A DNA stretch of 64,000 nucleotides, taken from positions 1,913,001-1,977,000 of the forward strand of contig NZ_BLPF01000001.1 in assembly GCF_011764425.1 (NCBI RefSeq), read 5' to 3'. The DNA comes from Phytohabitans houttuyneae (GTDB taxonomy: Bacteria; Actinomycetota; Actinomycetes; Mycobacteriales; Micromonosporaceae). Below the pieces are notes generated by a model that searched no databases, was not told where the DNA came from, and worked only from the letters and a program-made list of their open reading frames with translations. Position numbers and translations under genes: made by a program. Each line of letters begins with the position of its first letter. Position 1 is the first letter of the stretch. Below, piece after piece: positions 5,525 to 55,516 of this stretch.

Positions 5525-6700
5525 GTGGCCGGCGTGCTGTTTCGGACCTGGGAGGCGCCGGAGCGGGCGCGGGAGTGGCCCGACGTCGCGACGGTCGCCG
5601 ACCACGTCGGCGTGGAGCACCTCGTCGTGGCACGCCACGCCCTGGTCCGCGAGGTGCTGGCCGACCAGGCCACCTTCCGCCCGGACAACGCGCTCGACGC
5701 GCTCACCCCGATCCCCGTCGCCGCGCTGCGGATCCTGGCGCGCCACGGCTTCCGCCTGCCGCCGACGCTCGCCAACAACGGGCACCCCAGCCACCCCGCG
5801 ATCCGCGCGATCGTGGCCGACGCGCTGCACCCCAAGCGCGTCGAGGAGCAGCGGGCGTGGCTGACCACCGTCGTACGCGGCCGGGTCGACCGCCTCACCG
5901 CCGACCTCGCCCGGGGACGGCCCGTCGACCTCTACGCCGACCTCGCCGCCGACCTGCCCCTGCTGGTACTCGCCCGGCTCGTCGCCCTGCCCGACGCCGA
6001 CGCCGCCGTGGTCAAGGAGTTCACGCGGGCCGCGCTGGAGCTCTTCTGGGCCCCGGTCGCCCTCGACCGCCAGCTGGCGCTGGCCGAGATCGTGGGGCGG
6101 TTTCACAGGGTGCTGCGGGAGTTCGCGCAAGACGGCGCGGGGCTCGCCGCCGACCTGCGCGCGCAGGCGCAGAGCATGGACGTCGTCGTGGGCGCGCTCT
6201 TCTTCCTGCTGGTCGCGGGGCAGGAGACCACCTCGCAGTTCCTCACGCTCCTGCTGCACCGCCTGGCCGGCGAGCCGGCGGTGCTCGACGGCCTGCGCGC
6301 CGGTAGCGTCGCCGTGGATGATGTGGTCGAGGAGGGCCTGCGCCTGGTGCCACCGATCGTCACCTGGCGGCGCGTGGCCTCCCGCGACACGATGCTCGGC
6401 GGCACGCCGGTCGCCCGCGGCACGAGCATCGTGCTGTGGCTCGCCCAGGCCGGGCGCGACCAGGCAGTCGTTGCGAATCCGGACGACTTCCGCCCGGGTC
6501 AGCGCGGCTCAAGGCGGCACCTGTCCTTCGGCGCCGGCGCGCACCGCTGCGTGGGCGCCCAGCTCACCCGCATGGAGGCCGCCGTCGTGGTCGCCGAGAC
6601 CGCGCCGCTCCTGCACGGCACGCGCGTCACCCGCCCGCCGTGGTGCCCGGACAACCTCTCCTTCCGGATGCCGGACGCCTTCATCATCCAAAAACTTTGA
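5525..6700 (+). CDS. cytochrome P450
   Basis: A 391-residue soluble P450 monooxygenase. The I-helix oxygen-binding motif is LVAGQETTSQF, the K-helix ExxR is EEGLRLVPP, and the haem loop is FGAGAHRCVGAQL, where the Cys is the thiolate ligand. Length is normal for bacterial class I enzymes, which take electrons from ferredoxin; no ferredoxin or reductase gene lies beside it. The start is GTG at 5525 (GAGG four bases upstream) or possibly GTG at 5534; both are in frame. It is divergent from the TIR-like gene with about 180 bases between them. The stop codon TGA overlaps the first two bases of a 62-bp dispersed repeat. Substrate is unknown; an isolated P450 of this kind could serve xenobiotic or secondary metabolism. 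Confidence 0.9.
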   Translation: MAGVLFRTWEAPERAREWPDVATVADHVGVEHLVVARHALVREVLADQATFRPDNALDALTPIPVAALRILARHGFRLPPTLANNGHPSHPAIRAIVADALHPKRVEEQRAWLTTVVRGRVDRLTADLARGRPVDLYADLAADLPLLVLARLVALPDADAAVVKEFTRAALELFWAPVALDRQLALAEIVGRFHRVLREFAQDGAGLAADLRAQAQSMDVVVGALFFLLVAGQETTSQFLTLLLHRLAGEPAVLDGLRAGSVAVDDVVEEGLRLVPPIVTWRRVASRDTMLGGTPVARGTSIVLWLAQAGRDQAVVANPDDFRPGQRGSRRHLSFGAGAHRCVGAQLTRMEAAVVVAETAPLLHGTRVTRPPWCPDNLSFRMPDAFIIQKL

Positions 6701-6760
6701 GCTACCGCGACGTCCGCCGTGGTCCGGACCGTTGCTCCCGCGGCCTCACCCTCCGCGGTT
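6699..6760 (+). repeat. 62-bp dispersed repeat, copy A
   Basis: Begins GAGCTACCGCGACGTCCGCC, contains the 10-bp palindrome GGTCCGGACC and ends CCTCACCCTCCGCGGT. Two CCGCGG palindromes flanking CCTCACCCT can form a short hairpin. Starts inside the P450 stop codon. Three more copies lie at 7535-7596 (opposite strand), 18554-18610 and 55455-55516 (opposite strand). Copies A, B and D differ from one another at one to three positions. Confidence 0.9.
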
Positions 6761-6781
6761 CAAGACCTCGGTACCCTACCC

Positions 6782-6955
6782 CTACCCCGCGGGCGCCACA
6801 ACCGGCTGTCCACGCACCGCCGCTTCCTGACGCGCACGGCGCCCACGACGCCCAAGGCGCACGGCGGCGAACAGACGCTCACGGTCAGCCTCGGCGATCA
6901 GCTCACGCTGACGGTCGCGGGCCTGGGCCAGGACGAGGTCCGGGTGCATCATCAT
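6782..6955 (-). CDS. small basic protein of unknown function
   Basis: A 57-residue reading frame starting MMMHPDLVLAQARDRQREL. It has a good ribosome site (GGGAGA, about eight bases upstream of the first ATG at 6955), strong third-position GC and a helical, Arg/Ala-rich composition with a short Pro/Gly tail. Small proteins opening MHP followed by an Arg-rich helix are seen elsewhere in this window (48574-48762). No domain is recognised. It lies between the P450 and the IS110 remnant, antisense to both, and ends 21 bases from repeat copy A. It could be a nonfunctional leftover, but the ribosome site and codon pattern favour a real gene. Confidence 0.5.
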   Translation of the reverse strand: MMMHPDLVLAQARDRQRELIAEADRERLFAAVRLGRRGRRARQEAAVRGQPVVAPAG

Positions 6956-7169
6956 CGCTCTGTCTCCCTTGTGTTCCCTGCTCCGCTGATGAGTCAATCC
7001 TCGGCGGGTAAGGGCGCGGCCACATCGGGAGCGCTTACCTATCTTGGCGGCCCAGGCACCTTACGCAGCACCTACGAAGACTTACGCGCGTGGCCCAGCC
7101 CACACCAACGTCTCTAGGTATGCCTAAGAGGTCCGCGCTCGCGGAACGCAGCGTTCCGACCAGATGTTG
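6956..7169. other. gene-free stretch before the IS110 remnant
   Basis: Lower GC than the surroundings. No gene with a ribosome site and normal codon bias is seen on either strand. It continues into the transposase remnant, so part may be decayed insertion-sequence DNA. Confidence 0.4.
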
Positions 7170-7416
7170 CTCCATCGCGACCAAGTGGCCGCCGGCGTGG
7201 AGGGGATTCTCGATGCCCACCGTCTTACCGGGGCCTGACCTAATGGCCGGCATCGAGGTCAGGACCGCAGCCCGCATCGACGGTGCGGCGTTCCACACCA
7301 GGGGCATATGGCCGCCTACGCCGGCCTGGCCCTCGATCACCGGCCACTCCGGCAGTTCCATCCACGGTGAGCACCCACCCAGGGCGGTCACAAACAGCTC
7401 AATCGCGCCGTCGCGG
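7170..7416 (+). pseudogene. IS110-family transposase remnant (C-terminal part, frameshifted)
   Basis: No single open frame, but pieces in three frames line up in order with the C-terminal half of IS110/IS116 transposases: HRDQVAAGVEGILDAHRL, then MAGIEVRTAARI, then HMAAYAGLA, then ITGHSGSSIHGEHPPR, then GHKQLNRAV. The intact family has the same blocks (xxVRTAARI, LAAYAGLAP, RSGSSIRGEHP, GNKQLKRA). At least three frame changes and the loss of the N-terminal DEDD catalytic part make it dead. It sits between the two oppositely oriented repeat copies A and B and next to a long hairpin at 7456-7504. The block matches are direct; the family assignment rests on recall of the family pattern. Confidence 0.75.
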
Positions 7417-7455
7417 TCGGTGACTGCCGATCAGGTGCAGGCGGTGTGAGCTTCG

Positions 7456-7504
7456 AAATCTTGGTGAGTTAGCGCGTTATTTCGACGCTAACTTGCCAAG
7501 ATCT
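7456..7504. repeat. 19-bp inverted repeat (hairpin)
   Basis: Left arm 7456-7474 (AAATCTTGGTGAGTTAGCG) pairs with right arm 7486-7504 (CGCTAACTTGCCAAGATCT), with two or three mismatches and an 11-base loop. Noticeably AT-richer than its surroundings. It lies just past the IS110 remnant and may be the end of a mobile element or a strong transcription stop. No U-run follows the right arm on the + strand. Confidence 0.7.
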
Positions 7505-7534
7505 GCCGGAGCGGGCTCCTGGGTTGAGCTTGGC

Positions 7535-7596
7535 GACCGCGGAGGGTGAGGCCGCGGGAGCAACGGTCCGGACCACCGCGGACGTCGCGGTAGCTC
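7535..7596 (-). repeat. 62-bp dispersed repeat, copy B
   Basis: Reverse-strand copy of the element at 6699-6760. Reads GAGCTACCGCGACGTCCGCG from 7596 downward, with the same GGTCCGGACC core and CCGCGG palindromes. Lies about 50 bases past the bioD stop codon, in the sense direction of bioD. Past the core it still matches copy D (CGCCxAGCTCAxCCC). Confidence 0.9.
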
Positions 7597-7644
7597 ACAT
7601 CTCATTGGGTTTGAATCGGCGCGGAGAGCGACGCCAGCGCAGTG

Positions 7645-8373
7645 TCAGCCGGCGTCCTCGGCCCAGGCGCGCCAGTCGTCAAGGACGCCGTGCAGTGCCG
7701 GCGTCAGCCAGCCAGGCGCGCTGCGCTGGAAGACGCCCGGCTCCATCGCGCCCGCGCCGTCCGGTAGGGCGCCGACAAGGTTGGGCAGCAGCTCGCCGAG
7801 GTTTTCCCAGTGGACCAGCTCGGGCTCGGCCGGCCACGCGCCCAGGACCACGCCCGCGGACACGCTGCGGCGGTCGAGTGCCTCCAGGGTCAGGGCGGTG
7901 TGGTTGAGGGTGCCGAGGCCGGCGCGGTTGACCACGACGGCGCGGGCGTCCAGGGACACGGCCAGGTCGGCCACGGTCCACGGCTCGCCGGAGGGGCGCA
8001 GGCCCATCGGCACCAGCAGGCCGCCGGCGCCCTCGACAAGCACCAGGTCGTGCTTTTCCGCCTCGGCGCGCACCTCGTCGACCACCGTGTAGAGCTCGAG
8101 TGGCGGCAGCTCCGCCACCCGCGCGGCGGCGAGCGGGGCCAGCGGGTCCGGGTAGGAGGCCAGCGTGCGGGCGGTCGCCGGGGCGGCGAGGCGGTTGACG
8201 ACGTCCACATCGGAGGGGGCGCCGGTCGAGGTGCCGGTCTGGCCGGGCTTGACCACGGCGACGCGCAGCCCGGCGGCCTGGGCGGCGGCCGTGATCGCGG
8301 CGGTCACGACGGTCTTGCCGACGTCCGTATCGGTGCCGGTGACCACGACCGGCCCTCTCCAATCACCTGTCAC
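7645..8373 (-). CDS. bioD: dethiobiotin synthetase
   Basis: A 242-residue ATP-dependent carboxylase that closes the ureido ring of 7,8-diaminopelargonate to give dethiobiotin, the second last step of biotin synthesis. The N-terminal P-loop is GTDTDVGKT (residues about 13-21), the family hallmark; VVKPGQTGT binds substrate and VLVEGAGGLLVPM is the second conserved block. Length is standard. The start GTG at 8373 overlaps the bioF stop by three bases, so the two are translationally coupled. bioA, needed for the step between BioF and BioD, is not in the window. Repeat copy B follows the stop codon. Confidence 0.95.
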   Translation of the reverse strand: MTGDWRGPVVVTGTDTDVGKTVVTAAITAAAQAAGLRVAVVKPGQTGTSTGAPSDVDVVNRLAAPATARTLASYPDPLAPLAAARVAELPPLELYTVVDEVRAEAEKHDLVLVEGAGGLLVPMGLRPSGEPWTVADLAVSLDARAVVVNRAGLGTLNHTALTLEALDRRSVSAGVVLGAWPAEPELVHWENLGELLPNLVGALPDGAGAMEPGVFQRSAPGWLTPALHGVLDDWRAWAEDAG

Positions 8374-9506
8374 GGCGCGCACTCCACGATCACGTCGAGG
8401 GCCCGGTCGAAGTCGGCCCGCGGCACGCCGACGTTGACCGTCAACCGCAGTCGGGCCCGACTGTCCGGAGTGGAAGGTGGACGGAAGCAGCCTACGGCCA
8501 CGCCGCGGTCGCGGCAGTCCGCGGCCCAGGCCACGGCGGTCTCCGGGCCGGGCGCGGTCACCGACACCACTCCCCCGGCGGGGTCGGAGACCTCGAGGCC
8601 GGCGGCGCGCAGGCGGCGTACCAGTGCTGCCGCGCGGTCGGCGAGCTCCACGCGGCGGCCTTCGGAGCCGCGGGCCACTTCCAGCGCAGCGAGCGCGCCG
8701 GCGACGACGGCCGGCGGTGGCGCGGTGTCGAAGATGAACGTCCGCCCGGTGTCCACCAGATGGCGGACCAGTGCCGCCGGCCCGGCGATGAAGCCACCGG
8801 CCGCGCCGAGCGACTTGGAGAGCGTGGCCGTGACCACCACGTCGGGCTCGCCGGCCAGGCCCGCGGCGGCGACGCCACCCGCCCCGGCCGGGCCGATCAC
8901 GCCGAGCGCGTGCGCGTCGTCGACGAGCAGCAGCGCCCCGTGCCGGCGGGCCGCGGCGTGCAGGTCGGCGAGGGGCGCGAGGTCGCCGTCGACCGAGAAG
9001 ATCGACTCGCTGACCACCACGGCCGGGCGGCCGGGTGCGGCGGCCAGGGCCGCCCCGACCGCGGCGGCGTCCGCGTGGGGAGTGACGACGACCTCCGCGC
9101 CGGAGATGCGGCACCCGTCGATCAGCGAGGCGTGGTTGTGGGCGTCGGAGACGAGGAGGGTACGCGGCCGCGTCAGCGCCCGCACCGCCCCGAGGTTGGC
9201 CAGGTAACCGGAGGAGTACACGAGCGCGGCCTCGGTGCCGAGCCAGCCGGCGAGCCGCTCCTCGAGCTGGTGGTGAGCGCCGGTGGAGCCGCGCACGAGG
9301 CGGGAGCCGGTGGCGCCGAGCCCGTACGCGTCGAGGGCCTCCCGCGCCGCCGCGGTCACGTCCGGGTGGTTCGAGAGTCCGAGGTAGTCGTTGCCGGCGA
9401 GGTCGACCACCTCGTCGTCCGGAGCCCGGTGCCTCAGCTGCCGTGCCAGCCCCGCCTTCGCGCGCAGCCGCGCCCGGAGCTCCAGCTGCTCAAGCCACTC
9501 ACTCAC
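8370..9506 (-). CDS. bioF: 8-amino-7-oxononanoate synthase
   Basis: A 378-residue PLP enzyme joining pimeloyl-ACP/CoA with alanine. Seen: the glycine-rich SSGYLANLGAVRAL, the cofactor Asp and His in VDDAHALGVIG, and the Schiff-base Lys in TATLSKSLGAAGG. The start is GTG at 9506, with GAGG six bases upstream. It is divergent from bioB with only 35 bases between the two starts, so both promoters and any control site must overlap in that gap or within the coding ends. It heads a bioF-bioD operon. Confidence 0.95.
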   Translation of the reverse strand: MSEWLEQLELRARLRAKAGLARQLRHRAPDDEVVDLAGNDYLGLSNHPDVTAAAREALDAYGLGATGSRLVRGSTGAHHQLEERLAGWLGTEAALVYSSGYLANLGAVRALTRPRTLLVSDAHNHASLIDGCRISGAEVVVTPHADAAAVGAALAAAPGRPAVVVSESIFSVDGDLAPLADLHAAARRHGALLLVDDAHALGVIGPAGAGGVAAAGLAGEPDVVVTATLSKSLGAAGGFIAGPAALVRHLVDTGRTFIFDTAPPPAVVAGALAALEVARGSEGRRVELADRAAALVRRLRAAGLEVSDPAGGVVSVTAPGPETAVAWAADCRDRGVAVGCFRPPSTPDSRARLRLTVNVGVPRADFDRALDVIVECAP

Positions 9507-9541
9507 GATTCACCTCGACTTCCCCCTTGTAAGGTACGACC

Positions 9542-10537
9542 ATGCCAGAGATCCTCGACCTTGCTCGTACCCAGGTGCTCGAACGGGGCGTCGGCCTCGA
9601 CGAGGCCGGCGTGTTGGCGGTGTTGCGCCTGCCCGACGAGCATGTGCCGGACGTGCTGCAGCTCGCCCACGAGGTGCGGATGCGCTGGTGCGGTCCGGAG
9701 GTCGAGGTCGAGGGCATCGTCTCGCTGAAGACCGGCGGCTGCCCCGAGGACTGCCACTTCTGCTCCCAGTCGGGCCTCTTCACCTCCCCCGTCCGCTCGG
9801 TCTGGCTCGACATCCCCTCGCTCGTGGAGGCGGCCAGGCAGACCGCGGCGACGGGCGCGACCGAGTTCTGCATCGTGGCCGCCGTGCGCGGCCCCGACGA
9901 GCGGCTCATGAAGCAGATGCGCGAGGGTGTGGCGGCCATCAAGGCCGAGGTCGACATCCAGGTCGCGGCGTCGCTGGGCATGCTCAGCAAGGAGCAGGTG
10001 GACGAGCTGGTCGAGATGGGGGTGCACCGGTACAACCACAACCTCGAGACTTGCCGCTCGTACTTTCCGAACGTGGTCACCACCCACTCGTGGGAGGAGC
10101 GCTGGGAGACCCTCCGCATGGTGCGCGACTCCGGCATGGAGGTGTGTTGCGGGGGCATCCTGGGGCTCGGCGAGACGGTGGAGCAGCGGGCGGAGTTCGC
10201 CGCGCAGCTGGCCGAGCTCGACCCGCACGAAGTCCCGCTGAACTTCCTCAACCCCCGTCCCGGCACCCCGCTCGGTGACCGTCCGGTGGTGGAGGGCAAG
10301 GACGCGCTGCGGGCCATCGCCGCCTTCCGGCTCGCGATGCCGCGCACGATCCTGCGGTACGCGGGTGGGCGCGAGATCACGCTCGGTGACCTTGGTACGC
10401 GCGACGGCCTGCTCGGCGGGATCAACGCGGTGATCGTCGGCAACTACCTCACCACGCTGGGTCGTCCGGCCAGCGAAGACCTCGCGCTGCTCGACGACCT
10501 GAAGATGCCGGTCAAAGCACTCTCGGCGACGTTGTGA
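9542..10537 (+). CDS. bioB: biotin synthase
   Basis: A 331-residue radical-SAM enzyme inserting sulfur into dethiobiotin. The radical [4Fe-4S] cluster motif CxxxCxxC is visible as [26 protein letters not shown] and [11 protein letters not shown] are conserved downstream blocks, and the Cys and Arg residues that hold the second cluster are in place. The ATG start is well supported by the divergent arrangement with bioF. The stop codon overlaps the start of the auxiliary protein gene that follows. Length is typical. Confidence 0.96.
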
Positions 10538-10734
10538 CCGCGGTGAGCGAGGCGCTCTGGTGTGACCGGTGCGGCGAGCCGGCGGCCGAGGGCGACCACA
10601 CCGCCTGCGCAGCCGCCCGCCGGCTGGAGCCGCCGCGTTACTGCCCCACGTGCCGCCGGCGGATGAAGGTGCAGGTGCTGCCGGCGGGCTGGTCGGCGAC
10701 GTGTGTCGAGCACGGCAGGCTCGGTTCGGGCTGA
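10534..10734 (+). CDS. bsaP: biotin synthase auxiliary protein BsaP
   Basis: A 66-residue cysteine-rich protein with six Cys at residues 10, 13, 25, 37, 40 and 57 in the pattern CDRC, C, CPTC, C, and the central block [14 protein letters not shown]. The GTG start at 10534 overlaps the bioB stop, so it is made together with BioB. The pattern matches BsaP (Rv1590 type), a small iron-sulfur protein reported to be required for activity of mycobacterial biotin synthases. The assignment rests on the cysteine pattern, size and position after bioB. A zinc-ribbon role is the alternative reading. Confidence 0.8.
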
Positions 10735-10743
10735 CATCCATGC

Positions 10744-10776
10744 CGCCACTACCGCGCCTTCGGGGCGGTAGTGGCG
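10744..10776. terminator. bidirectional hairpin between bsaP and the GGDEF gene
   Basis: Perfect 12-bp arms CGCCACTACCGC (10744-10755) and GCGGTAGTGGCG (10765-10776) with a nine-base loop. It sits between two converging genes and can stop transcription from both sides, although no long T-run follows. Confidence 0.75.
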
Positions 10777-10783
10777 ACCCCCG

Positions 10784-11731
10784 TCATGGGTCGGAGGGTT
10801 CGCGGTCCAGGTGCGGATCGGCCTCCGCGCGGATCGCCAAGCAGTCCGCGGGCATCGTGTCGACCATCGTGCCGGTGTCCGAGTACCGGTAACGCACCAG
10901 AGCCGCCCACTCGGAGGCTCCCTCGACCACGCCCGCGCGGCGCATGCCGTCGCGGTGCACCCACACGGGGTCACCCGGCCGGTACGGCACCGCGGGTGCC
11001 TGCGCGGTCGGGCCGGGCGGGATGGCGGGGGAGGCAGCCGGCTCGTACATAACCGCGCGACCATCGCCTTCGCCGGCCACGACCCAGGTGATACCGGGCC
11101 TGCCGGTCGTGCGCGCGTGCCGCTTGGCGCGGAACATCGCCTGGTCAGCGCGGCGGAGCAGGTCAGCGAGGTCGGCGGGGTGGCTGGCCGGGACGACGCC
11201 GATCGAGGCGGTCACGGCAAGCTTGCGGCCCGCCACGTTCATCGGGGGTGCGATCGCCGCGCTGAGCGAGGCGGCGACCTCGTGCCACCACGCCTCGGGG
11301 GCGTCCGGGCGGGGCGCGCTGGGCAGCGCCGCGAACTCGTCGCCGCCGAACCGGGCCACCAGGTGGTCGCCGAGGCAGGCGCCCATGCGCCGGGCGATCA
11401 CACAGAGCACCTCGTCACCGGCGTCGTGCCCGAAGGTGTCGTTGATCGGCTTGAAGCCGTTGAGGTCGAGGATCAGGACCGCGGACGAGCGCTCCTCCGC
11501 GCGCAGCAGCGTCGGGGCGAGCGCGTGGAAGAGCCGGCGGTTGGCCAGCCCGGTGAGCGCGTCGTGTCCGGCCATCCAACGGAGCGTGGAACGCTCCTGC
11601 TCCAGCCGCTGGACATGGGCTTCGAGCTGGTCGATCCGGGCCTGGAGCCGGGCGGTGTCAGCCTCGGTCCGCATCCCGCCAGCCGGCGGGGCACCGCCGG
11701 TGTCGGCGGCTGCGGGATCGAGGATCCGCAT
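10784..11731 (-). CDS. diguanylate cyclase (GGDEF) with C-terminal barrel-like domain
   Basis: A 315-residue protein predicted to make cyclic di-GMP from two GTP. A short coiled coil (about residues 20-50, ARIDQLEAHVQRLEQERS) leads into a GGDEF domain starting MAGHDALTGLANRRLF, with the intact active loop ARFGGDEFAAL. No RxxD inhibitory site is present before the loop (LGDH occupies that place), so product inhibition of the usual type is unlikely. The last 60 residues, YRPGDPVWVHRDG to DCLAIRAE, resemble a small SH3/Tudor-like barrel. No membrane segment or sensor domain is seen. The start ATG at 11731 has GAGAGG eight bases upstream. An upstream in-frame extension exists but lacks a ribosome site. 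Confidence 0.85.
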   Translation of the reverse strand: MRILDPAAADTGGAPPAGGMRTEADTARLQARIDQLEAHVQRLEQERSTLRWMAGHDALTGLANRRLFHALAPTLLRAEERSSAVLILDLNGFKPINDTFGHDAGDEVLCVIARRMGACLGDHLVARFGGDEFAALPSAPRPDAPEAWWHEVAASLSAAIAPPMNVAGRKLAVTASIGVVPASHPADLADLLRRADQAMFRAKRHARTTGRPGITWVVAGEGDGRAVMYEPAASPAIPPGPTAQAPAVPYRPGDPVWVHRDGMRRAGVVEGASEWAALVRYRYSDTGTMVDTMPADCLAIRAEADPHLDREPSDP

Positions 11732-12050
11732 CGGCCATCCTCTCAAGACTGCAACGGTGACACCGCCGAGTCGGGACTGAGGGAACAAGGGATTCCCTCG
11801 CGCGTACAAAGAATCATGACAGCTTGCCGACGCACGTGCAAGATTTCACCTGGATAACTGTCACGACGACATCGTGCATCGGAACGAGTTTCGGCTACTC
11901 TAGGTGCGTGCCACTTTCGTGGTGAAAGAATGATCCGTGCGCCCAAGCGCCGGTTCTGCCTGTCACACGGGCATCGGGTGGCACACCGGTCACCGGCCCG
12001 GGGGTCACGCCGGTTACCCACAGCAAGCACTCCGGCGCGAGGGAGTACTG
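11732..12050. other. divergent regulatory stretch
   Basis: Separates the GGDEF gene and the DUF397 gene, and must hold both promoters. It is AT-richer around 11810-11925. No gene, repeat or clear operator was recognised. Confidence 0.4.
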
Positions 12051-12257
12051 ATGAGTAGTGAAGCCGGCTGGATCATGTCCAGCAGGTCGACCGGCAACGG
12101 CGGCAGTTGCGTCGAGGCACGCCGCCACGAGGGCCACATCGAGGTCCGCAACAGCAAGGCACGAGACGCCGGCACCGTGGTGTTCACCACCGCGGAGTGG
12201 GACTCGTTCCTCTTCGGTGCGAAGCGCGGCGAGTTCGACCAGCTCCTGACGGACTGA
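12051..12257 (+). CDS. DUF397 protein
   Basis: A 68-residue protein with the DUF397 signature: W followed by SSRSTGNGGSCVEARR and, in the second half, VRNSKARDAGTVVFTTAEW. These small cytoplasmic proteins are abundant in actinomycetes and usually accompany an XRE/DUF5753 regulator; one lies 1 kb away on the other strand. The ATG at 12051 has GAGGGAG about five bases upstream, which excludes the longer in-frame starts. Biochemical role is unknown; members are thought to pair with the XRE protein in a toxin-antitoxin-like or developmental switch. Confidence 0.85.
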   Translation: MSSEAGWIMSSRSTGNGGSCVEARRHEGHIEVRNSKARDAGTVVFTTAEWDSFLFGAKRGEFDQLLTD

Positions 12258-12279
12258 CCGCAGCGGAACCCCAGACAAA

Positions 12280-12307: not shown

Positions 12308-12326
12308 GTGCTATGTGGACCGCGGA

Positions 12327-16973: not shown

Positions 16974-18538
16974 ATGGCCCTGCATTTGGCCCCTGGCACC
17001 GCGTGGGCGGACACGCTCGCCCGCGCGGTCGCCGCGGCACCCGAGGCGTTCGACCGCACTACGGACGGTCACGTGACCTTGCGCAACCTGGCCGAGGGCG
17101 AGTGGCGTTCCATCGGCACGCCCAGCGCGGTCCGCACACCGGTCGACAACACCGTCCTCGCCCGTCTGTCCCGTGTGGACGCCGGTACGGCGCGGTCGGC
17201 GGTCGCCGCCGCGGCCACCGCGCACCGCGCCTGGGCGGCGACGCCGCTGGCGGAACGCAAGTCGCGGGTCGCCGCCGCCCTCGACGAGCTCACCGCGCAC
17301 CGCGACACGCTCGCGCTGCTGCTCGTCTGGGAGATCGGCAAGCCGTGGCGGCTGGCCTGCGCGGACGTCGACCGGGCGCTGGACGGCGTGCGCTGGTACC
17401 TCGACCAGATCGACCGCCAGCTCGCCGCCCGGGACCCGCTGCCCGGCCCGGTGAGCAACATCGCGAGCTGGAACTATCCGATGAGCGTCCTGGTGCACGC
17501 CGAGCTCGTGCAGCTGCTCGCCGGCAACGCTGTCATCGCCAAGACCCCGTCACAGGGCGGCGCGGCCTGCCTCACCCTCGCGCACGCGGTCATGCACCGC
17601 GCCGGCCTGCCCGCGACGCTGCTGTCCGGGGGCGGCGAGGAGCTCTCCGAGGTGCTGGTACGGGCAAGCGAAATCGGCGCGGTCGCGTTCGTGGGCGGGC
17701 GGTCCAACGGCGGGAAGGTGGCCGCCGCACTCCTCGACACCGACAAGCGCCACATGATCGAGCAGGAGGGCCTCAACGCCTGGGGCATCTGGAACTTCTC
17801 CCGCTGGGACACCCTCGCCGCCCACCTCAGGAAGGGCTTCGAGTACGGCAAGCAGCGGTGCACGGCGTACCCCCGCTTCGTGGTGCAGCGCGAGCTGGTG
17901 GACGCGTTCCTCGACGTGTACCTGCCGGTGATCCGCTCCGTCCGCTTCGGCCACCCCTCGCCGTCGACCCCACCTGGCGGGCCGGCGACCCACTGCCCGA
18001 GCTCGACTTCGGCCCGCTGATCAGCGCGGCCAAGGCGGACGAACTCCACCGCAAGGTCGACGAAGCGGTCCGCGCCGGCGCCATCCCCATCCACCGCGGC
18101 CGCCTGGACCGCGGCACGTTCCTGCCCGGCCAGGACACCTCCGCCTACGTGGCACCGGCCGCGCTGCTGGCACCGCCCGGCCGCTCCCGCCTGATGCACA
18201 GCGAGCCGTTCGGCCCGGTCGACACGATCGTGGTCGTGGACACCGAGCAGGAGCTGCTCGCACAGATGAACGCGTCGAACGGCGCCCTCGTCGCCAGCCT
18301 GGCCTGCGACGACGAGGAAGAGGCCGCCAAGCTCGCCGTGGACCTGCAAGCCTTCAAGGTGGGCATCAACAAGCCGCGCTCCCGCGGCGACCGCGAAGAA
18401 CCCTTCGGCGGCCGCGGCGCATCGTGGAAGGGCGCCTTCGTCGGCGGCGACCTGCTTGTGCGCGCTGTGACCGTTGGCGAGGCGGGCGAGCGCCTGTACG
18501 GCAACTTCCCCGACCACACCAGCTACCCCACAACCTGA
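16974..18538 (+). pseudogene. aldehyde dehydrogenase family gene with a -1 frameshift
   Basis: The first part (16974 to about 17955) codes for an aldehyde dehydrogenase: NIASWNYPMSVLVHAELVQL, a cofactor-fold block and QRCTAYPRFVV with the catalytic Cys, while IEQEGLNAWGIWN carries the likely Glu. At 17954-17957 a run of four C is one base short: the frame ends in an unrelated tail at 18020, while the true continuation (VDPTWRAGDPLPELDFGPLI, then MHSEPFGPV and GGRGASWKG) goes on in the next frame to 18538. Adding one C restores a full protein of about 521 residues. The start ATG at 16974 has GAGGAGG five bases upstream. Because both halves keep good codon use, this is either a sequence error or a very recent mutation. 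Substrate is unknown; ALDHs oxidise aldehydes to acids with NAD(P). Confidence 0.8.
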
Positions 18539-18891
18539 GCCCGTTCATCCATCGAGCTACCGCGATGTCCGCTGTGGTCCAGACCGTTGCTCCCGCAGCC
18601 TCACCCTCCGCCCCCGGTCCAGGTCACCCCCGGCTGCGCCGGGCCACGCCCCTCCCTCCCGCCGCGCCACCGTCCACACCGCACCGTCGCGCGCACCGTG
18701 CTCGCTGTGGGCACACAGGCACCTGGCCTCACGCGGCGCCGCCTCCTGACCCCGCGCGGTGCCGCCTCCCGGCCGGGCCGCCACGGGCACCGCGCCGCCA
18801 CGCGGACAGCGCGCCGCGACTCGCTGGCGGTCTTGCCGGAGGCCATGGTGCGGGACAGCAGTTGGGCCGGCTGCGGGCTCAGAGCGTGACA
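18539..18891. other. gene-free stretch holding repeat copy C
   Basis: Extremely GC-rich. Copy C of the dispersed repeat lies at its left edge; the rest holds open frames without ribosome sites on both strands, which I do not accept as genes. The cysteine- and Arg-rich translations look like noise from high GC. Confidence 0.4.
18554..18610 (+). repeat. 62-bp dispersed repeat, copy C (most diverged, shortened)
   Basis: Starts GAGCTACCGCGATGTCCGCT 15 bases past the aldehyde dehydrogenase stop codon, in the sense direction. It differs from the other copies at several positions (GGTCCAGACC instead of GGTCCGGACC; CCGCAG instead of CCGCGG), and its similarity ends at CCCTCCG. Confidence 0.85.
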
Positions 18892-48479: not shown

Positions 48480-48573
48480 GACACCTCCAAACCGCCTTGA
48501 CTAGTAACCATCATCCTACTACCGTCAAGACGACACCATCAAAGATACTTCACTAGTGTCGGGGAGGACACCC

Positions 48574-48762: not shown

Positions 48763-48899
48763 CCGACGCCCCAGCCACACCCGGGCGTGACCGACCGCCA
48801 GCCACACCCGGTATGAACGACGCGCCACCAATGTCAGGCACGACCGACGCGCCAACCACGCCGGGCACGACCGACGAGACACCGGGCACGACCGACGAG
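48744..48899. repeat. 27-bp minisatellite, six units
   Basis: Units at 48744, 48771, 48798, 48825 and 48852 are each exactly 27 bp (pattern CCAGCCACRCCCGG then a GACCGACG-type end); the sixth (48879-48899) is 21 bp. Units differ at several positions, so the array is not brand new. It begins inside the 3' end of the small gene at 48574 and runs into the gap before the polymerase gene. Confidence 0.85.
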
Positions 48900-48966
48900 C
48901 CAGCCGCGGGCGGACACGGGGGCCGCCCGAGGGACCAGAGACAGGGCCGTCACGCGGACGGCGCCG

Positions 48967-49998
48967 CTACTCGCTCTCCCAGTTCGCCGCGTTCTTGCGG
49001 CTGGGCTGCACGCGGGGCGGCTCGCCCGGCATCTTCGGGTGGTCTGGCGGATATGGCATCTCGCCCTGGCCGTCGCGTTCGTCGCGGGCCGACCACTCCA
49101 GCAGCGGCGAGATGTCAAAGGCCTCGTCGTCGATCGCCGCGTGCGGGTCGCCGATCTTCGCGAAGCGTTCGGGCACGGTCCGGATGTCGAAGTCGTCCGG
49201 TTCGACCTCGAGCAGCTCGTCCCAGGTGACCGGCGTGGAGACGGTGGCCCGGCCGTTGGCGCGCAGGGAGTAGGCGCAGGCGATCGTGCGGTCGCGGGCC
49301 ATCTGGTTGAAGTCGACGAAGACGCGTTCGCCCCGCTCCTCCTTCCACCACGACGTGGTGACGAGGTCGGGGCGACGACGTTCGACCTCGCGGGCCAGCG
49401 CGATCACGGCCCGGCGCACGCCGACGAAGTCCCACTCCTGGCGGATCCGCACATAGACGTGCACGCCCCGGCCTCCCGAGGTCTTGGGAAAGCCGGTGAT
49501 GCCGAGCTCTTCGAGCACCTCGCGGAGCACGCCGGCGGCCTTGACCGCGTGGCCGAAGTCGGTGCCCGGGGAGGGGTCCAGGTCGATGCGCAGCTCGTCC
49601 GGGTGATCGGGGTCGTCCTTGCGCACCGGCCACGGGTGAAAGACCACGGTGCCGAGCTGGGCCGCCCACGCCACGTGCGCGAGGTCGGCCGGGCACAGCT
49701 CGTCGGCCGGCCGCCCGCTCGGAAAGGTGATGCGCGCGGTCTGCACCCACGGCGGCACCCCGCGGGTGGGGATCCGCTTCTGGTAAAACATTTCCCCTTC
49801 GATGCCCTCGGGAAAGCGCTGCAGGGTCGTGGGCCGGTCGCGCAGGGCGCGCACGATGCCGTCGCCGACCGCGAGGTAGTACGAAAACAGGTCGTGCTTT
49901 GTGTAGCCGCGCTGCGGAAAGTAGACCTTGTCAGGACTGCTCAGTCGCACCTTGTGGCCGGCGACCTCGACCTCGACGGCGCTCGCCTTCGGACTCAT
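48967..49998 (-). CDS. LigD-type end-joining polymerase (PolDom)
   Basis: A 343-residue archaeo-eukaryotic primase-like polymerase. Conserved blocks: DKVYFPQRGYTKHDLFSYYL, FYQKRIPTRGVPPWVQT, the metal Asp pair in ELRIDLDPSPGTDFGHA, TSGGRGVHVYVRI and VFVDFNQMARDRTIACAYSL. It is a free-standing polymerase domain without ligase or nuclease parts. It fills ends during non-homologous joining, probably with Ku and LigC; the ligC gene is 3.7 kb away, Ku is not in the window. It follows the PH-domain membrane protein gene by 27 bases on the same strand. Confidence 0.92.
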   Translation of the reverse strand: MSPKASAVEVEVAGHKVRLSSPDKVYFPQRGYTKHDLFSYYLAVGDGIVRALRDRPTTLQRFPEGIEGEMFYQKRIPTRGVPPWVQTARITFPSGRPADELCPADLAHVAWAAQLGTVVFHPWPVRKDDPDHPDELRIDLDPSPGTDFGHAVKAAGVLREVLEELGITGFPKTSGGRGVHVYVRIRQEWDFVGVRRAVIALAREVERRRPDLVTTSWWKEERGERVFVDFNQMARDRTIACAYSLRANGRATVSTPVTWDELLEVEPDDFDIRTVPERFAKIGDPHAAIDDEAFDISPLLEWSARDERDGQGEMPYPPDHPKMPGEPPRVQPSRKNAANWESE

Positions 49999-50025
49999 GT
50001 CGCGACCATACTGCTTTTGAGCAGG

Positions 50026-50487
50026 TCAGCTGTGCACGCTCCAGTCGCGATGGGTCTCCCACAGGTGCACGAGCATGAAGAGGCGGCGCTCGAAAAAGGG
50101 ATCCCGGGCCAGCCAGAGCCCGTCGTAGGGCGCGGGGAGCCGCAGCGTCTCGCCCGAGTCGAGGTAGACGGCGACCACCGTGCGGCGGTGGCGGCGCTCC
50201 GGCCGGATGTCCACGACCTGCCGCCACGAGGCGACACCCGCCAGCGCCGGCATCGTGCGGCGGATGCCGTAGTCGTCGATCTCGGTCGCGCACCGGCGCC
50301 CGGCGGCGACGCCGGCGAGCCCGACCGCGAGCGGGGGCACGACGAGGATCGCGACGCGGAGTTGGGGCGGCGTGACAAAGGAGACAGCGAGGACGACAAA
50401 CGCACAGACCACGCCGGCGGTCAGTCCCTGCCCGATCGCCTGGCGCCAGGTCGGCCGAAAGCTGACCAGCGCACACCCGTCCCCCAC
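50026..50487 (-). CDS. membrane protein with bacterial PH-like domain
   Basis: A 153-residue protein. Two hydrophobic spans (about 18-38 AIGQGLTAGVVCAFVVLAVS and 42-63 QLRVAILVVPPLAVGLAGVA) are followed by a soluble domain with DDYGIRRTMPALAGVASWRQ and VVDIRPERRHRRTVVAVYLD, which reads like a bacterial pleckstrin-homology fold. Function unknown. GTG at 50487 is the likely start, just after an ATG-poor stretch. Probably in operon with the polymerase gene. Confidence 0.7.
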   Translation of the reverse strand: MGDGCALVSFRPTWRQAIGQGLTAGVVCAFVVLAVSFVTPPQLRVAILVVPPLAVGLAGVAAGRRCATEIDDYGIRRTMPALAGVASWRQVVDIRPERRHRRTVVAVYLDSGETLRLPAPYDGLWLARDPFFERRLFMLVHLWETHRDWSVHS

Positions 50488-50565
50488 GCCTGATCAACGA
50501 CACCGTCAGCGGTTGGTAATCAACGGGCGAGGCGGGTCACCCTCGCGCGGTCGTACCGTGGGGGC

Positions 50566-50982
50566 ATGGCTGCTGACGAAATGACCGTGCCCACCACCGA
50601 CGACGAGTGGCGTGTGCGCCTTTCGCCCGACGAGTACCGCGTGCTCCGCCAGGCCGGCACCGAGGCGCCCTGGACCGGGGAGTACGTGGACACCAAGACC
50701 AAGGGCGTCTACCGCTGCCGCGCGTGCGGGGCGGAACTCTTCTCCAGCGACACCAAGTTCGACTCGCACTGCGGGTGGCCGTCGTTCTTCACGCCGCTGG
50801 CCGAAGACCGCGTGCGCTACATCGTCGACAGCTCGCTCGGCATGGTGCGCACCGAGGTGCGGTGTGCGCGCTGCGACTCGCACCTCGGCCACGTCTTCGA
50901 GGGCGAGGGCTACGCGACACCGACCGACCAGCGCTTCTGCATCAACAGCATTTCCCTGACGCTGGAGCCGGCCGACTCGTAA
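50566..50982 (+). CDS. msrB: peptide-methionine (R)-S-oxide reductase
   Basis: A 138-residue enzyme repairing oxidised methionine. Two zinc CxxC pairs ([11 protein letters not shown] and [14 protein letters not shown]) and the catalytic Cys in [13 protein letters not shown] are intact; SHCGWPSFF is the family's substrate pocket. Length is standard and no fusion with MsrA is seen. The ATG at 50566 is preferred. It stands alone just before the type VII secretion locus. Confidence 0.95.
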
Positions 50983-51077
50983 ATACACGGCGTAAAGGCG
51001 GGCGGGGCTGAGCCTCGCCTTCAGCGGACGGCGCGCAGTCGCTACGATCCCCAACCAAGGTGTACGGGGAGGACAGC

Positions 51078-52757
51078 ATGGCGCGCATACTGACGGTTTC
51101 CTCGCAACGCGCAGGGGCATATCCGACAATTCAGGATGCGCTCGAGGTTGCCGCTGATGGTGCGGTCATCTCCGTCGAGCCGGGGACGTACACCGAGGCG
51201 ATCCGCATCATGGGCCGCCGCCTCACCATCAACGCCGCCAAGGACCCCGGCTCCGTCACGATCGACGCCAGTGAGGCGGGCGGCCCGGCCGTCGCCGCCG
51301 CCCGCGCCGACGTCACGCTCGAAGGCCTGGTGCTCAAGGCCGCCGACTACCCGGCGGTGACCGCGTCCAACACCCGCCTCACCGTCACCAAGTGCGAGGC
51401 GAGCGCCGGATACGCCGCGGGCATCTCCGTCACGGACGGCGGGCAGGTGACCGCCACCGACGTCAAGGTGACCGGCGGGCAGTACGGGTTCGTCATCGAG
51501 GACTCGGGCGGCGTCATCGACAAGTGTGAGGTCCGCGGCATCTCGGACGACGGCATCATCGTGCGGCTCGGCGCCAACCCCACGATCCGCAACTCGACGA
51601 TCGCCGGCTGCGGCTACCGCGGCATCTACGTGTACCAGGCCGGTCGCCCCACGATCGAGCGGTGCGACATCTCCGGCACCGGTGACGCCGGCATCTCCGT
51701 CGCGCACCAGAGCTCACCCACGATCACCGACAGCTGGGTGCACGACACGTCGGGCGTGGGGATCGCGTTCGGGCGCGGCTGCGGCGGGCTTGTCGAGGGC
51801 ACGCGCGTCGAGGGCACCGCCGCGCCCGGCATCGACGTCGAAGAGGGCGCGACGCCGACAATCCGGGTGGCCGACGACACCGCGGGCACGTTCAAGGTCG
51901 GCGCGACCGCGACCGAGGGCCTCGCCCAGCAGGACACCGTCAAGGTGGAAAAGCTGCTCGCCGAGCTCGACTCGATGATCGGCCTCGGCGGCGTCAAGGC
52001 GGAGGTCCGCGCGCTCATCGACGAGATCCAGGTCAACGAGTGGCGGCGCAGCGCGGGCCTCGCGGTCGGCGGCGCCAGCAACCACCTCGTCTTCACCGGC
52101 GCGCCCGGCACCGGCAAGACCACCGTCGCACGCATCTACGGCCAGCTGCTCAAGGCGCTCGGCGTCCTTCCCGGCGGCGACTTCAAGGAAGTGTCCCGCC
52201 GCGACCTCGTCGGCCAGTACATCGGTCACACCGCCGAGAAGACCACCGTCGCGTTCGAGTCGGCGCTCGGCGGCGTGCTCTTCATCGACGAGGCGTACAC
52301 GCTCTCCCGCTCCGCCGGCACCAGCGCCGACTTCGGCCAGGAGGCCATCGACACGCTGGTGAAGCTGATGGAGGACCACCGCGACCAGGTGGCCGTCATC
52401 GTCGCGGGGTACACGGACGACATGGCCAACTTCCTGGACGCCAACGCCGGTCTGGCCTCGCGATTCGCCAAGACGCTGGAGTTCGAAAACTACTCGCCCG
52501 ACGAGCTGGTGCTGATCGTGCGGCGGATCGCGCGCAACGACGACTACCTGCTGGGCGCGGGGTTGGACGAGGCGCTGCTGGAGTGGTTCGGGCAGATCGA
52601 GCGCGACCAGAACTTCGGCAACGCGCGTGAGGCGCGCAAGCTCCTCGAAGGAATGCGCAAGGTGCAGTCCGGCCGGCTGCGCGCGCTCGGGCGCATGCCG
52701 AGCCGTGACGACCTGCGCACCCTCGTGCTCGACGACTTGCTGGGAGCGACGCGCTGA
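51078..52757 (+). CDS. beta-helix/AAA ATPase, EccA-like
   Basis: A 559-residue protein. Residues 1 to about 265 form a right-handed parallel beta-helix with repeating strands and turns ([40 protein letters not shown]). From about 305 on is a CbbX/SpoVK-type AAA domain: [21 protein letters not shown]-loop [20 protein letters not shown] (about 340-359), [20 protein letters not shown], Walker [13 protein letters not shown] and arginine finger region [19 protein letters not shown]. This ATPase class is the one found in EccA of ESX type VII systems, where TPRs replace the beta-helix. It precedes eccE on the same strand. GGGGAGG lies five bases before the ATG. A role in handling ESX substrates is inference from position. 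Confidence 0.82.
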
Positions 52758-52843
52758 ACATCGGTTTCTATGATGGTGAGGTGCACGGCTGAGAAAGCGC
52801 CGCCCCGCGTGGGCGGCGAGCGAGGACGGGGGTAGTTGACGGC

Positions 52844-54118
52844 ATGACGGTGTCGCCGCAGACCGTGTCGCCACACCAGGTTCGCGCCGTCGCGCGGGTC
52901 GCCTCCGAGTCGCCTGACTCGTCGGGGCCGGCGATCCTCATCCCCCGTCGCCGACCCGGCCACCTCGGCCCGGTGCACATCACCCAGCTGCTGCTCGCCG
53001 AGGTGGTGGTGGTCGGCGTCCTGGCCAGCATCACCAGCGAGATCATCGCGCTGATCGCGGGCGCGGCCATCGCCGGCATCCTGCTGCTGCTCGTCACGCT
53101 CGGCCGGCGCAACGGCCGGTGGTGGCTTGAGCGGCGCGTGATGACGCGCAACTACAAGCGGCGGCGGCTGAGCTCGACGGCCACGCCTTTCGGTGACGAT
53201 GCCCGCCTCGGCGCCCTGCGCCGCCTCGCGCCCGACCTCGTGGTGGAAAACGTGTCGGTGGCCGACGGCTCGCACGTGGGCGTGGCCCGCGACGACGCCG
53301 GGTGGTACGCGGTGGCCGCCGTCACCTCCAGCGCCCCGATGCGCGACGACCCCGGCCCGATCCCGCTGGAGGCGCTGGCCGCCGCGCTCGCCGAGGCCGA
53401 CCAGCCCGGGGCGGTGCTGCAGGTGGTCACGCAGACCGTGCCCGCGCCCAGCCTGGAGATGCACCCGTCGTCGGCGGCCGGCCAGTCTTACCGGCAGCTG
53501 CTGGCCCGCTTCGGCGCGGTGCCGGTGCCGGCCGACCGGAGCACGTGGATCGCGGTGCGGCTCGACGCCCGTACCCTCGCGGAGGCCGTCGCGGACGGTG
53601 AGGCCGACCTCGAGACCGCGCCCGCGGTCGTGGCCGCCCTGGTCCGCCGCGTGGCCAAGTCACTGCGGCGGGTGGGCGTGAGCCACCGCCTCCTCGACGC
53701 CGACGAGCTGCTGGAGGTGCTGCTGCGCTCGTGCGACCTGGCGCCGACCACGGCGAGCGCCGAGCCGGTGCAGCCACGCGAAGACTGGTCCGAGTGGCAC
53801 TCGTCCCGCCTCGTCCACCGGTCGTACTGGATTCGTGGCTGGCCCCCGGTCGACCAGGCCACCGCGCTGCTCGACCTGCTCACGACCATGCCGGCCTCGA
53901 TGACCAGCCTCTCGCTGACCATGGCGCCCGACGACGACAAGCGGCTGATGGACCTTCGCGGCCTCGTCCGCGTGGCCGCCCCCGCCGACCAGGTCGCGCA
54001 GGTCAGCCAGGCCATCCGGCGCGGGGCGGAGCAGGCCAAGGCCGACCTCTTCCCACTCGACGGCGAGCAGGGCCCCGCGGTGTACGCGTCGGCCCCGACC
54101 GGAGGTGGCGCGCGATGA
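52844..54118 (+). CDS. eccE: type VII secretion protein EccE
   Basis: A 424-residue membrane protein: proline- and Ser-rich start, two membrane spans (about 47-95, ITQLLLAEVVVVGVLASITS and IIALIAGAAIAGILLLLVTL) and a large cytoplasmic domain from about 120. This is the EccE layout, the least conserved ESX core protein, and the family block SWIAVRLD-like STWIAVRLDARTLAEAV is present. It overlaps the next gene by four bases (ATGA), so the two are coupled. It belongs to the ESX channel at its outer rim. Confidence 0.85.
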   Translation: MTVSPQTVSPHQVRAVARVASESPDSSGPAILIPRRRPGHLGPVHITQLLLAEVVVVGVLASITSEIIALIAGAAIAGILLLLVTLGRRNGRWWLERRVMTRNYKRRRLSSTATPFGDDARLGALRRLAPDLVVENVSVADGSHVGVARDDAGWYAVAAVTSSAPMRDDPGPIPLEALAAALAEADQPGAVLQVVTQTVPAPSLEMHPSSAAGQSYRQLLARFGAVPVPADRSTWIAVRLDARTLAEAVADGEADLETAPAVVAALVRRVAKSLRRVGVSHRLLDADELLEVLLRSCDLAPTTASAEPVQPREDWSEWHSSRLVHRSYWIRGWPPVDQATALLDLLTTMPASMTSLSLTMAPDDDKRLMDLRGLVRVAAPADQVAQVSQAIRRGAEQAKADLFPLDGEQGPAVYASAPTGGGAR

Positions 54119-55284
54119 CCCAACCCAGGCCGTACGAGGACGAGCAGGCCCAGCAGCAGCCGCCCGGCCAGGGCTCCGTTGGCCGCGCCGCCGTCGGTCC
54201 CCCACCCGCCGTCGCCCGCCCGGCCGTGCCCACGCAGTACGGCGGCCCGGCGTACGCGCAGCAGCAGGCCGCACCGGCCCCTCCGCCGCGGACGACCGTG
54301 CCGCCACCGCCCGCGGTGCCGCAGGTGCCGGTCGCCAACCCGCCGACCGGCGGCATGGTGATCGGCCGCGACCCGACGCTCTCCGCACCCGTGGTGCAGG
54401 TCCCGCCCCCGTCCACGGCCGGCCCGCAGAGCACCACCGTCGCCCGCCAGGCCGCCGCGGCGGCCACCGCCGCACAGGCCGCCTCCGCCACCTCCACACA
54501 CGCCGCCGCCCGCGCGATACCCGACGCGAGCCAGGAGAGCCCGCCCGGCACCGTGTACGACAGCCGCCGCCCGCCGAACGGCGGCGGCCGCGTCCCGCTG
54601 CTGGGCAAGCTGGCGCGGCTGCGGATCGGTTCGCACACGATCTCCCGCCCGGCCCTCGCCAAGCTGCGCCTGTCCGTGCCGGGCACCGGCCTGATCCTGG
54701 GCGCCGACCGCCAGCAGCGCCCGGTGTCCGTCCGGTTCTTCCGGCCCGAGCCGACCCGGGTCGCCCTGGTCGGCGGCGCGTGGGCGGGCATGCTCGTCGC
54801 GTTCCGCGCGCTGGCGCTGGGCGCGCGCGTCGCGGTCATCACCGCCGACCCGCGCACCTGGCACGGCTTCGGCGAGCGCGCCACCGGCCGCGGCGACCGC
54901 GTGGCCGTCTTTCCCACCGAGCAGCCGCTCGCCCTCGCCGCCACCGCGCAGCAGCCCGTGCTGCTCCTCTACGACCTCGGCCTCGTCGGGCCGAACGCGC
55001 CGCAGCAGCTCGGCCCCTGGCAGACCCAGATGACCGTGCTGCGCCAGCTCGACCAGACCGGCGTGCCGTCCATTCAGGACTGCAACCTCGTGATGCTGCA
55101 GCGCCTGGGCAGCGCCGAGGCCGCCCTCGTCGGCGGCGCGCTGCGCCTGCCCGCGCCGAGCACCCAGTTTCTGCAGGTGATGGCCGACGACATGATCGCC
55201 CTGGTGGGCGACGGCAGCGACCGCTACATCTGGTTTTCCCAGACCGACGTCGAGCGCCAGTACGCGGGCGCCCCACGCCGCTGA
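54115..55284 (+). CDS. proline-rich type VII locus protein of unknown function
   Basis: A 389-residue protein coupled to eccE. The first 150 residues are Pro/Gln/Ala-rich and disordered. From about 180 a folded domain appears: RIGSHTISRPALAKLRLSVP, then a Rossmann-like VALVGGAWAGMLVAFRALAL and VAVITADPRTWHGFGERATG, and finally RYIWFSQTDVERQYAGA. No catalytic motif is seen. No membrane span. It seems specific to this branch of actinobacteria and probably assists EccE or substrate delivery. That role is inferred from coupling alone. Confidence 0.65.
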   Translation: MTQPRPYEDEQAQQQPPGQGSVGRAAVGPPPAVARPAVPTQYGGPAYAQQQAAPAPPPRTTVPPPPAVPQVPVANPPTGGMVIGRDPTLSAPVVQVPPPSTAGPQSTTVARQAAAAATAAQAASATSTHAAARAIPDASQESPPGTVYDSRRPPNGGGRVPLLGKLARLRIGSHTISRPALAKLRLSVPGTGLILGADRQQRPVSVRFFRPEPTRVALVGGAWAGMLVAFRALALGARVAVITADPRTWHGFGERATGRGDRVAVFPTEQPLALAATAQQPVLLLYDLGLVGPNAPQQLGPWQTQMTVLRQLDQTGVPSIQDCNLVMLQRLGSAEAALVGGALRLPAPSTQFLQVMADDMIALVGDGSDRYIWFSQTDVERQYAGAPRR

Positions 55285-55454
55285 CCTTTACAGAAGCCGA
55301 TATGCCCCGGTCCGCGCCACCCGCGGACCGCATGCTCCCGCGGGCACCGCTCCGGTCGGCGGCGAGCTTGGCGCTCGCCGAGATCCCCGACCTCCACTGC
55401 CAGGTCCGCCGCCCAAGCCCAAGCCCGGGTTCTGGCTCTCGGGGTGAGCTGGGC

Positions 55455-55516
55455 GACCGCGGAGGGTGAGGCCGCGGGAGCAACGGTCCGGACCACGGCG
55501 GACATCGCGGTAGCTC
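55455..55516 (-). repeat. 62-bp dispersed repeat, copy D
   Basis: Reverse-strand copy, reading GAGCTACCGCGATGTCCGCC from 55516 downward. It lies 46 bases past the stop of the VOC gene in its sense direction, inside the type VII locus. Similarity to copy B extends further (AGCTCA/ACCC). Confidence 0.9.

Follow-up and report, generated by a model that had tools for sequence, protein, structure and literature searches.

What is the 62-bp sequence that occurs four times in a 64,000-nucleotide stretch of the Phytohabitans houttuyneae genome (NZ_BLPF01000001.1, positions 1,913,001 to 1,977,000; hereafter the window), each time close to the stop codon of a gene and in the direction of that gene? The initial annotation, made from the letters of the window, offered a choice between a 3'-end processing or termination element and a tiny non-autonomous mobile unit. 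The second half of that guess has proved the better one, although no mobilizing gene has been found. We consider it reasonably probable (about 0.6) that the sequence is a non-coding, non-autonomous intergenic repeat, similar to the repetitive extragenic palindromes (REPs) of other bacteria, which marks the edges of insertion blocks and is a landing site for an insertion sequence (IS) of the IS4 family. The case rests on where the repeat lies and how it points, on what happens at the same gene junctions in related species, and on the discovery of an IS4-family element that inserts into it.

Copy Number and Placement

A search with a 23-base core, allowing no more than two mismatches, finds about 318 near-consensus copies in P. 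houttuyneae (genome G000, 11.3 Mb, within which the window is C1:1913001-1977000; G+C is 72% in a 400-kb sample). The same search finds 354 copies in P. suffuscus NBRC 105367 (G002), 413 in P. flavus NBRC 107702 (G003), 107 in G005, 28 in G004, and one in G001, a genome that retains more divergent copies in the form of 18 BLAST matches. Within the family, 40 of 150 genomes contain some copy of the core, again with at most two mismatches, and the six genomes of the genus Asanoa, to which A. siamensis (G023) belongs, hold 13-38 copies each. At one Asanoa locus (L126, 5164-5420), the repeat occurs in its Asanoa form as a tandem array of four, with a spacing of about 70 bp. A distant plasmid search found no repeat, and the exact 23-base core was not found in viral contigs.

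Placement was determined in 2.22 Mb from three species (1.2 Mb of P. houttuyneae plus the window, and 480 kb each of P. suffuscus and P. flavus). Genes are script predictions from a codon-usage gene finder trained on the P. houttuyneae genome, with a Pfam check on seven window proteins. The position weight matrix that describes the repeat (type A) has no match at 15 bits in either the shuffled or the reversed 1.2-Mb P. houttuyneae sample; at 35 bits or more it identifies 92 copies in the placement set, all of which were placed and none dropped. Fifty-nine lie in convergent gaps, 17 in tandem gaps in sense, 15 in tandem gaps in antisense, one in a divergent gap, and none within a predicted gene, whereas convergent gaps account for just 10-29% of the intergenic length of each set. 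The initial annotation had named random position and strand across the genome as what would speak against its proposal; placement is in fact strongly biased and not random.

A same-strand gene lies upstream of 76 of the 92 copies, with a median distance of 53 bp beyond the stop codon, which would seem to extend the annotation's rule that the repeat always follows its gene in reading direction. The rule does hold for the four copies of the window. However, a copy in a convergent gap counts as lying after a same-strand gene in either orientation, so that such a count is no test of orientation, and in tandem gaps the rule fails generally (17 sense, 15 antisense). Being downstream of a gene and in sense is largely a by-product of convergent-gap geometry, and the reading of the repeat as a sense 3'-end element was dropped for these reasons. 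What this set obeys instead is a rule of polarity, with the 5' end directed toward the nearer gene. It is on the gene-nearer side in 89 of the 92 copies, comprising 57 of 59 in convergent gaps, all 17 tandem sense, all 15 tandem antisense, and not the single divergent copy; 20,000 rounds of random orientation flips gave a mean of 46 and a maximum of 65. The 20 bases ahead of the 5' end are rich in A (0.30) and T (0.24), against 0.14 for each in controls.

Facing Pairs and Gene-free Blocks

Cores of a related repeat, type B (at most three mismatches), number 72 in P. houttuyneae, 112 in P. suffuscus, 93 in P. flavus, and 83 in G011. Of 27 type-B copies placed, 16 are in convergent gaps, six in tandem antisense, five in tandem sense, and none in divergent gaps, with one of the 27 within a predicted gene. 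Neighboring A or B copies that are no more than 4.5 kb apart, without a complete predicted gene in between, form 36 pairs, 35 of which face inward, one of which runs head-to-tail, and none of which faces outward; 17 of the 36 combine an A end with a B end. A predicted gene reaches into one of these pairs (469360/469870), the pairs at 272988 and 849500 of the P. houttuyneae sample belong to one duplicated segment and so are not independent, and five additional neighboring A/B pairs have genes between them. Facing pairs, the one head-to-tail pair, and single copies are the only arrangements seen in Phytohabitans.

The members of facing pairs are 65-1502 bp apart, and the gaps between them contain other dispersed repeats. 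A AGATCTTGGCAAGTTAGCG hairpin is present in 16 gaps, 13 of which also have a type-A copy, and the block interiors that were compared are mosaics of other repeats, differing from block to block. Some type-A and type-B copies themselves contain, at a constant point, a hairpin-like insert of 45-50 bp (GGCCCCCGGGGAAACGTGGAGCGCAGCGGAGCGTTTTCTTGGGG), as at C1 1304009, 1304425, and 1347476 of P. houttuyneae (L044, L046).

Orthologous Junctions between Species

The orthologous gap was located for 17 P. houttuyneae gaps, 10 of them without a type-A copy in any relative compared and seven with one. The loci L233, L248, and L181 entered this comparison because they bear the repeat, and L248 duplicates a stretch of P. 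suffuscus. The P. houttuyneae gap and that of the repeat-less relative measure 779 vs -33, 1275 vs 42, 562 vs -1, 155 vs -15, 1022 vs 62 and 131, and 944 vs 31 and 70 bp, and one more short gap in a repeat-less relative is 13 bp long. At the 921642 junction the A-B block is missing from P. flavus; at 877753 P. houttuyneae has an A-B pair and P. flavus an A-A pair; at 1027386 the P. suffuscus copy is on the opposite side of the gap. The P450-bioD gap of P. flavus (L089) carries a different palindrome, TTGATCAGGGA...TCCCTGATCAA, near the P450 stop codon. This palindrome is one of a family found near gene ends in 12 gaps of the P. houttuyneae sample, 10 of which lack the 62-bp repeat.

Where a gene end is occupied in two species, the flanks on both sides of the copies could not be aligned by eye in seven of seven rows, although the genes in these rows are 85-93% identical. 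Given such flanks beside such genes, the repeat copies seem to turn over more quickly than the genes diverge. The core is meanwhile about as similar between species (91-92% identity) as within them (91-93%). Part of these identity sets, and the orthologue rows on loci L133-L252, share the bias of 120 loci of 8 kb that were fetched by an exact core pattern.

An IS4-Family Element Targets the Central Palindrome

Half-repeats might be taken for degraded copies, an idea that was dropped once they were recognized as places where an IS4-type family had inserted. The halves flank DNA with inverted ends CAATGCCACTCA. In contiguous stretches of P. suffuscus and P. flavus, 15 of 16 such ends abut half of a 62-bp repeat, and 22 of 23 do so when seven ends on repeat-fetched loci are added. 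The end pattern has 92 matches (35 in P. suffuscus, 33 in P. flavus, and 24 in G005), and no CAATGCCACTCA-type end was found in the window's own genome. In 20 stretches taken from these matches by their IS end, 44 ends (one weak) were read with a looser pattern; all 44, in P. flavus and P. suffuscus, sit in repeat halves. The insertion point is the central palindrome GGTCCGGACC, and the 10-bp flanks are identical in 10 of 21 pairs.

Five of the inserted units are 1539-1541 bp long, eleven are 166-169 bp, and the others are 1572-3047 bp, with one weak pairing of 147 bp discounted. The IS4-family element of about 1540 bp is found in P. flavus (L302, L299-L307), and the like-ended units of 166-169 bp in P. 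suffuscus (L309-L317). One full unit encodes a 418-aa IS4-family transposase (PF13006, PF01609, NF033592), for which a search at E <= 1e-30 gives 18 match pieces in P. flavus, one in P. suffuscus, and none in G000, G001, G004, G005, or G023. In the sister species an IS4-family element targets the central palindrome, and this lends support to the protein site that the initial annotation had considered for the palindromes. A P. flavus unit with the same kind of ends (9497930-9499768; L117:18618-19400) carries a gene for an IS5-family transposase instead of the IS4 gene. In P. suffuscus L315 and L317, like halves stand on both sides of a short unit, as would be expected had the DNA between two facing copies been inverted, and inversion is what this pattern suggests.

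There is a close precedent for an IS4-family element at the axis of palindromy of an extragenic repeat. ISRm22 of S. meliloti is inserted in REPs at this axis in 10 of 10 cases in the table of Tobes and Pareja (2006, PMC1525189). Phytohabitans differs in its added like-ended units of 166-169 bp, in that the target is the 62-bp repeat, and in that P. houttuyneae has no such insertion; the REP-like behavior as an IS target is seen in the sister species and not in the window's genome.

RNA Structure, Coding, and Termination

The RNA fold that the initial annotation suggested from the palindromes does not hold up. Single folds show no unusual stability, and neither do 20 copies per type compared with shuffled sequences (mean z -0.6 for type A and -1.3 for type B; antisense, -0.1 and -0.9). 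In the consensus stem that joins positions 2-10 to 16-24, the pair 7-19 is open in RNAalifold and fails in about one third of copies, position 7 being invariant, and the column profile of 216 copies, a set biased to exact cores by the way in which the 8-kb loci were fetched, has no compensated pairs. Rfam at gathering scores returned no matches in 10 sources. An RNA fold was thus rejected on stability, and a structured RNA or riboswitch of the Rfam kind on the lack of matches and compensation. No intrinsic terminator was found at 6600-7700, the only stretch scanned, which contains copies A and B. The in-frame ATG reported for copies C and D is present, but it is one side of a C/T polymorphism at position 12 (53%/47% of the 216 exact-core-biased copies), which makes ACG or ATG, and it has no other coding support. 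A peptide was rejected on this ground and because several other common variants change the residue.

The Window and Its Genes

Each of the two half-patterns of the repeat matches four times in the window, against none expected from shuffles, in agreement with the places and strands first given for the four copies (Table 1). The copies at 6699, 7537, and 55457 score near consensus (96-97 bits), and that at 18554 is divergent (76 bits). The initial annotation did not include the type-B repeat that lies opposite copy D in its gap. Measured from the stop codons of the P450, bioD, aldehyde dehydrogenase, and vicinal oxygen chelate (VOC) genes, the distances to the repeat are -2, 48, 15, and 46 bp. 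Both palindromes noted within the repeat, GGTCCGGACC and CCGCGG, are present in the window copies. Pfam bears out the gene names, with the VOC gene placed more exactly as Glyoxalase_6 and bioD as a bioD-type AAA_26 gene. For three open frames inside the P450-bioD block, Pfam gave nothing informative. The aldehyde dehydrogenase beside copy C is divided between two reading frames (16974-18020 and 18149-18538, covering Pfam profile positions 9-312 and 351-450), which may reflect a frameshift, a decayed gene, or a sequencing error.

Table 1. Repeat copies, associated elements, and neighboring genes in the window
Feature	Position	Strand	Remarks
Cytochrome P450 gene (PF00067)	5525..6700	+	Start is a script prediction
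Type-A repeat, copy A	6699..6760	+	Overlaps the end of the P450 TGA stop by its first two bases
944-bp P450-bioD block, no predicted gene	6701..7644	.	Orthologous gap 31 bp in P. suffuscus, 70 bp in P. flavus
Central palindrome GGTCCGGACC, copy A	6721..6730	.	Equivalent place elsewhere is the insertion point of the IS4-family element or its derivative (P. flavus and P. suffuscus)
Second dispersed hairpin repeat (AGATCTTGGCAAGTTAGCG...)	7456..7504	.	Found inside such blocks
Type-A repeat, copy B	7535..7596	-	Faces copy A across gene-free block
bioD-type AAA_26 gene	7645..8346	-	Pfam
Type-A repeat, copy C, divergent	18554..18613	+	Orthologous P. flavus gap holds a facing pair
Related type-B repeat core	55303..55350	+	Faces copy D; 18 bp past stop of gene 54115-55284
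Type-A repeat, copy D	55455..55516	-	
Glyoxalase_6 (VOC-like) gene	55563..55997	-	Pfam

Relation to Known Repeats

In Di Nocera (2013, PMC3733652), REPs are described as lying mainly between convergent or unidirectional genes, downstream of genes, and in pairs of opposite orientation, and CGTC REPs as having no dedicated transposase; the word 'actinobacteria' is absent from the main text of that source. The resemblance to REPs and to bacterial interspersed mosaic elements (BIMEs), as covered in the same paper and in Nunvar (2010, PMC2817692), extends to high-copy short extragenic repeats, convergent or unidirectional gaps, opposite-orientation pairs, and mosaics. By placement, then, the 62-bp repeat behaves as a REP, being of high copy number, extragenic, found in convergent or unidirectional gaps, and rare in divergent ones. 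It departs from REPs in form. The definition given in these papers is a palindrome of 20-40 bp whose end tag, GTAG or CGTC, is unpaired (PMC3733652, PMC2817692), whereas the present repeat is about 60 bp long and has no tagged end, its CGTC lying in the stem loop. Phytohabitans pairs also differ from REP pairs in being 65-1502 bp apart, and the host is an actinomycete. Miniature inverted-repeat transposable elements have terminal inverted repeats with a target-site duplication and derive from a transposon; for the 62-bp repeat, inward pairs are present, no clear target-site duplication was seen by eye, and no parent transposon was found. Integron attC sites form cassette arrays that go with an integron integrase; the Phytohabitans copies were seen as facing pairs, one head-to-tail pair, and singles. 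Mycobacterial interspersed repetitive units (MIRUs) are likewise short actinobacterial repeats beside stop codons, oriented with the neighboring genes, but they lie inside operons, whereas the 62-bp repeat is single or in facing pairs and mainly between convergent genes. No description of the repeat itself was found in open-licence PMC papers.

Interpretation and Alternatives

On the reading that we prefer, the repeat would be the outer edge of gene-free intergenic blocks of about 0.1-1.5 kb, with its 5' end outward and often preceded by an AT-rich leader of about 20 bp. Such blocks would often be bounded by two ends that face inward, either of which can be type A or the related type B, and their turnover at the gene junctions of the genus would take the form of gain, loss, and replacement. 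They would survive mainly where promoters and operons are left unbroken, that is, between convergent genes, and because of this survival each end would look like a sense 3'-end element. Their spread probably involves DNA copying with trans-acting machinery, and the bias in location may be mostly the work of selection. We put forward more tentatively, and with appreciable doubt, the further idea that A and B are interchangeable end tags of intergenic blocks, which trans-acting machinery would insert, swap, and invert as units, a non-autonomous class that would be set by the polarity of its ends and not by its interior or its transposase.

Several observations weigh against the insertion-block reading. 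The polarity is weaker in 80 of the 120 exact-core 8-kb loci, where it holds for 28 of 36 convergent copies and where two of 81 copies lie within a predicted gene, and it is weak in Asanoa (13 of 21 copies with both neighbors; seven of 28 omitted at locus edges). Some repeat-less relatives have long gaps, namely 141 bp (372 in P. houttuyneae) and 256 and 411 bp (1792 in P. houttuyneae), the 411-bp gap being one of P. flavus that contains a degraded fragment of the repeat, and others have gaps longer than those of P. houttuyneae (600 vs 105 and 1208 vs 278 bp). The Y1 transposase (PF01797) was detected in none of seven genomes, while the control was detected in 5 of 14, and mobilization by Y1 transposases or REP-associated tyrosine transposases (RAYTs) was rejected accordingly. 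A gene family traveling with the repeats was likewise rejected, as none recurs beside them in the P. houttuyneae sample. Block ends have no clean target-site duplication as judged by eye. Finally, the near-invariant core could also mean selection on a binding site.

Among the alternatives, the repeat might be a 3'-end element that ends or trims the transcript after the stop codon, by way of a Rho-type mechanism acting on C-rich RNA, and so separates convergent transcripts. The excess of C over G in the sense strand (skew 0.13 vs 0.02 in controls) is the best point for the Rho-type version, and the 76 copies after a same-strand gene, at a median of 53 bp past the stop, would fit as well. Yet 15 of the 32 tandem copies are antisense, the sense strand folds no better than shuffles (mean z -0.6), the 6600-7700 stretch has no intrinsic terminator, and 10 of 17 orthologous gaps have no copy. 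With copies differing at orthologous gene ends, the processing or termination role first proposed is not favored, and we think it unlikely. Ranking below it is a DNA site for chromosome mechanics. Enterobacterial BIMEs have been proposed as sites for gyrase or a nucleoid protein, and by analogy the 62-bp repeat might bind such a protein and be favored where convergent transcription piles up supercoils. The convergent enrichment (59 of 92 copies against 10-29% of intergenic length) and the nearly invariant core between species are what such a site would lead one to expect, but the core copy number ranges from 1 to 413 within one genus (the lowest value being that of G001, with its 18 divergent BLAST matches), and positions are mostly unconserved.

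Least probable of all is that the repeats mark the termini of a single transposon family, the autonomous member of which has been lost or lies outside the sample. Pairs do face inward, and orthologous junctions without the block exist, as they would for a transposon. Against this, the interiors compared are differing mosaics of other repeats, ends switch between type A and type B, the 36 counted pairs contain no whole gene and no recurrent gene family adjoins the repeats, and inspection by eye revealed no target duplication.

Implications

The copies in the window point to a REP-like system in a genus of actinomycetes, one in which no Y1 transposase was detected, the polarity is sharp, and an IS4 family is specific to the repeat as a target. 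The system makes it testable how REP-like repeats spread without RAYTs, and the short palindrome GGTCCGGACC is a candidate for studies of target choice by IS4 elements. It also helps to explain the strong differences between Phytohabitans species in their convergent gaps. If the repeats are indeed interchangeable end tags, the gene junctions of this actinomycete genus would constitute a fast-evolving layer of the genome, one that an IS4 family has come to exploit as a landing pad.

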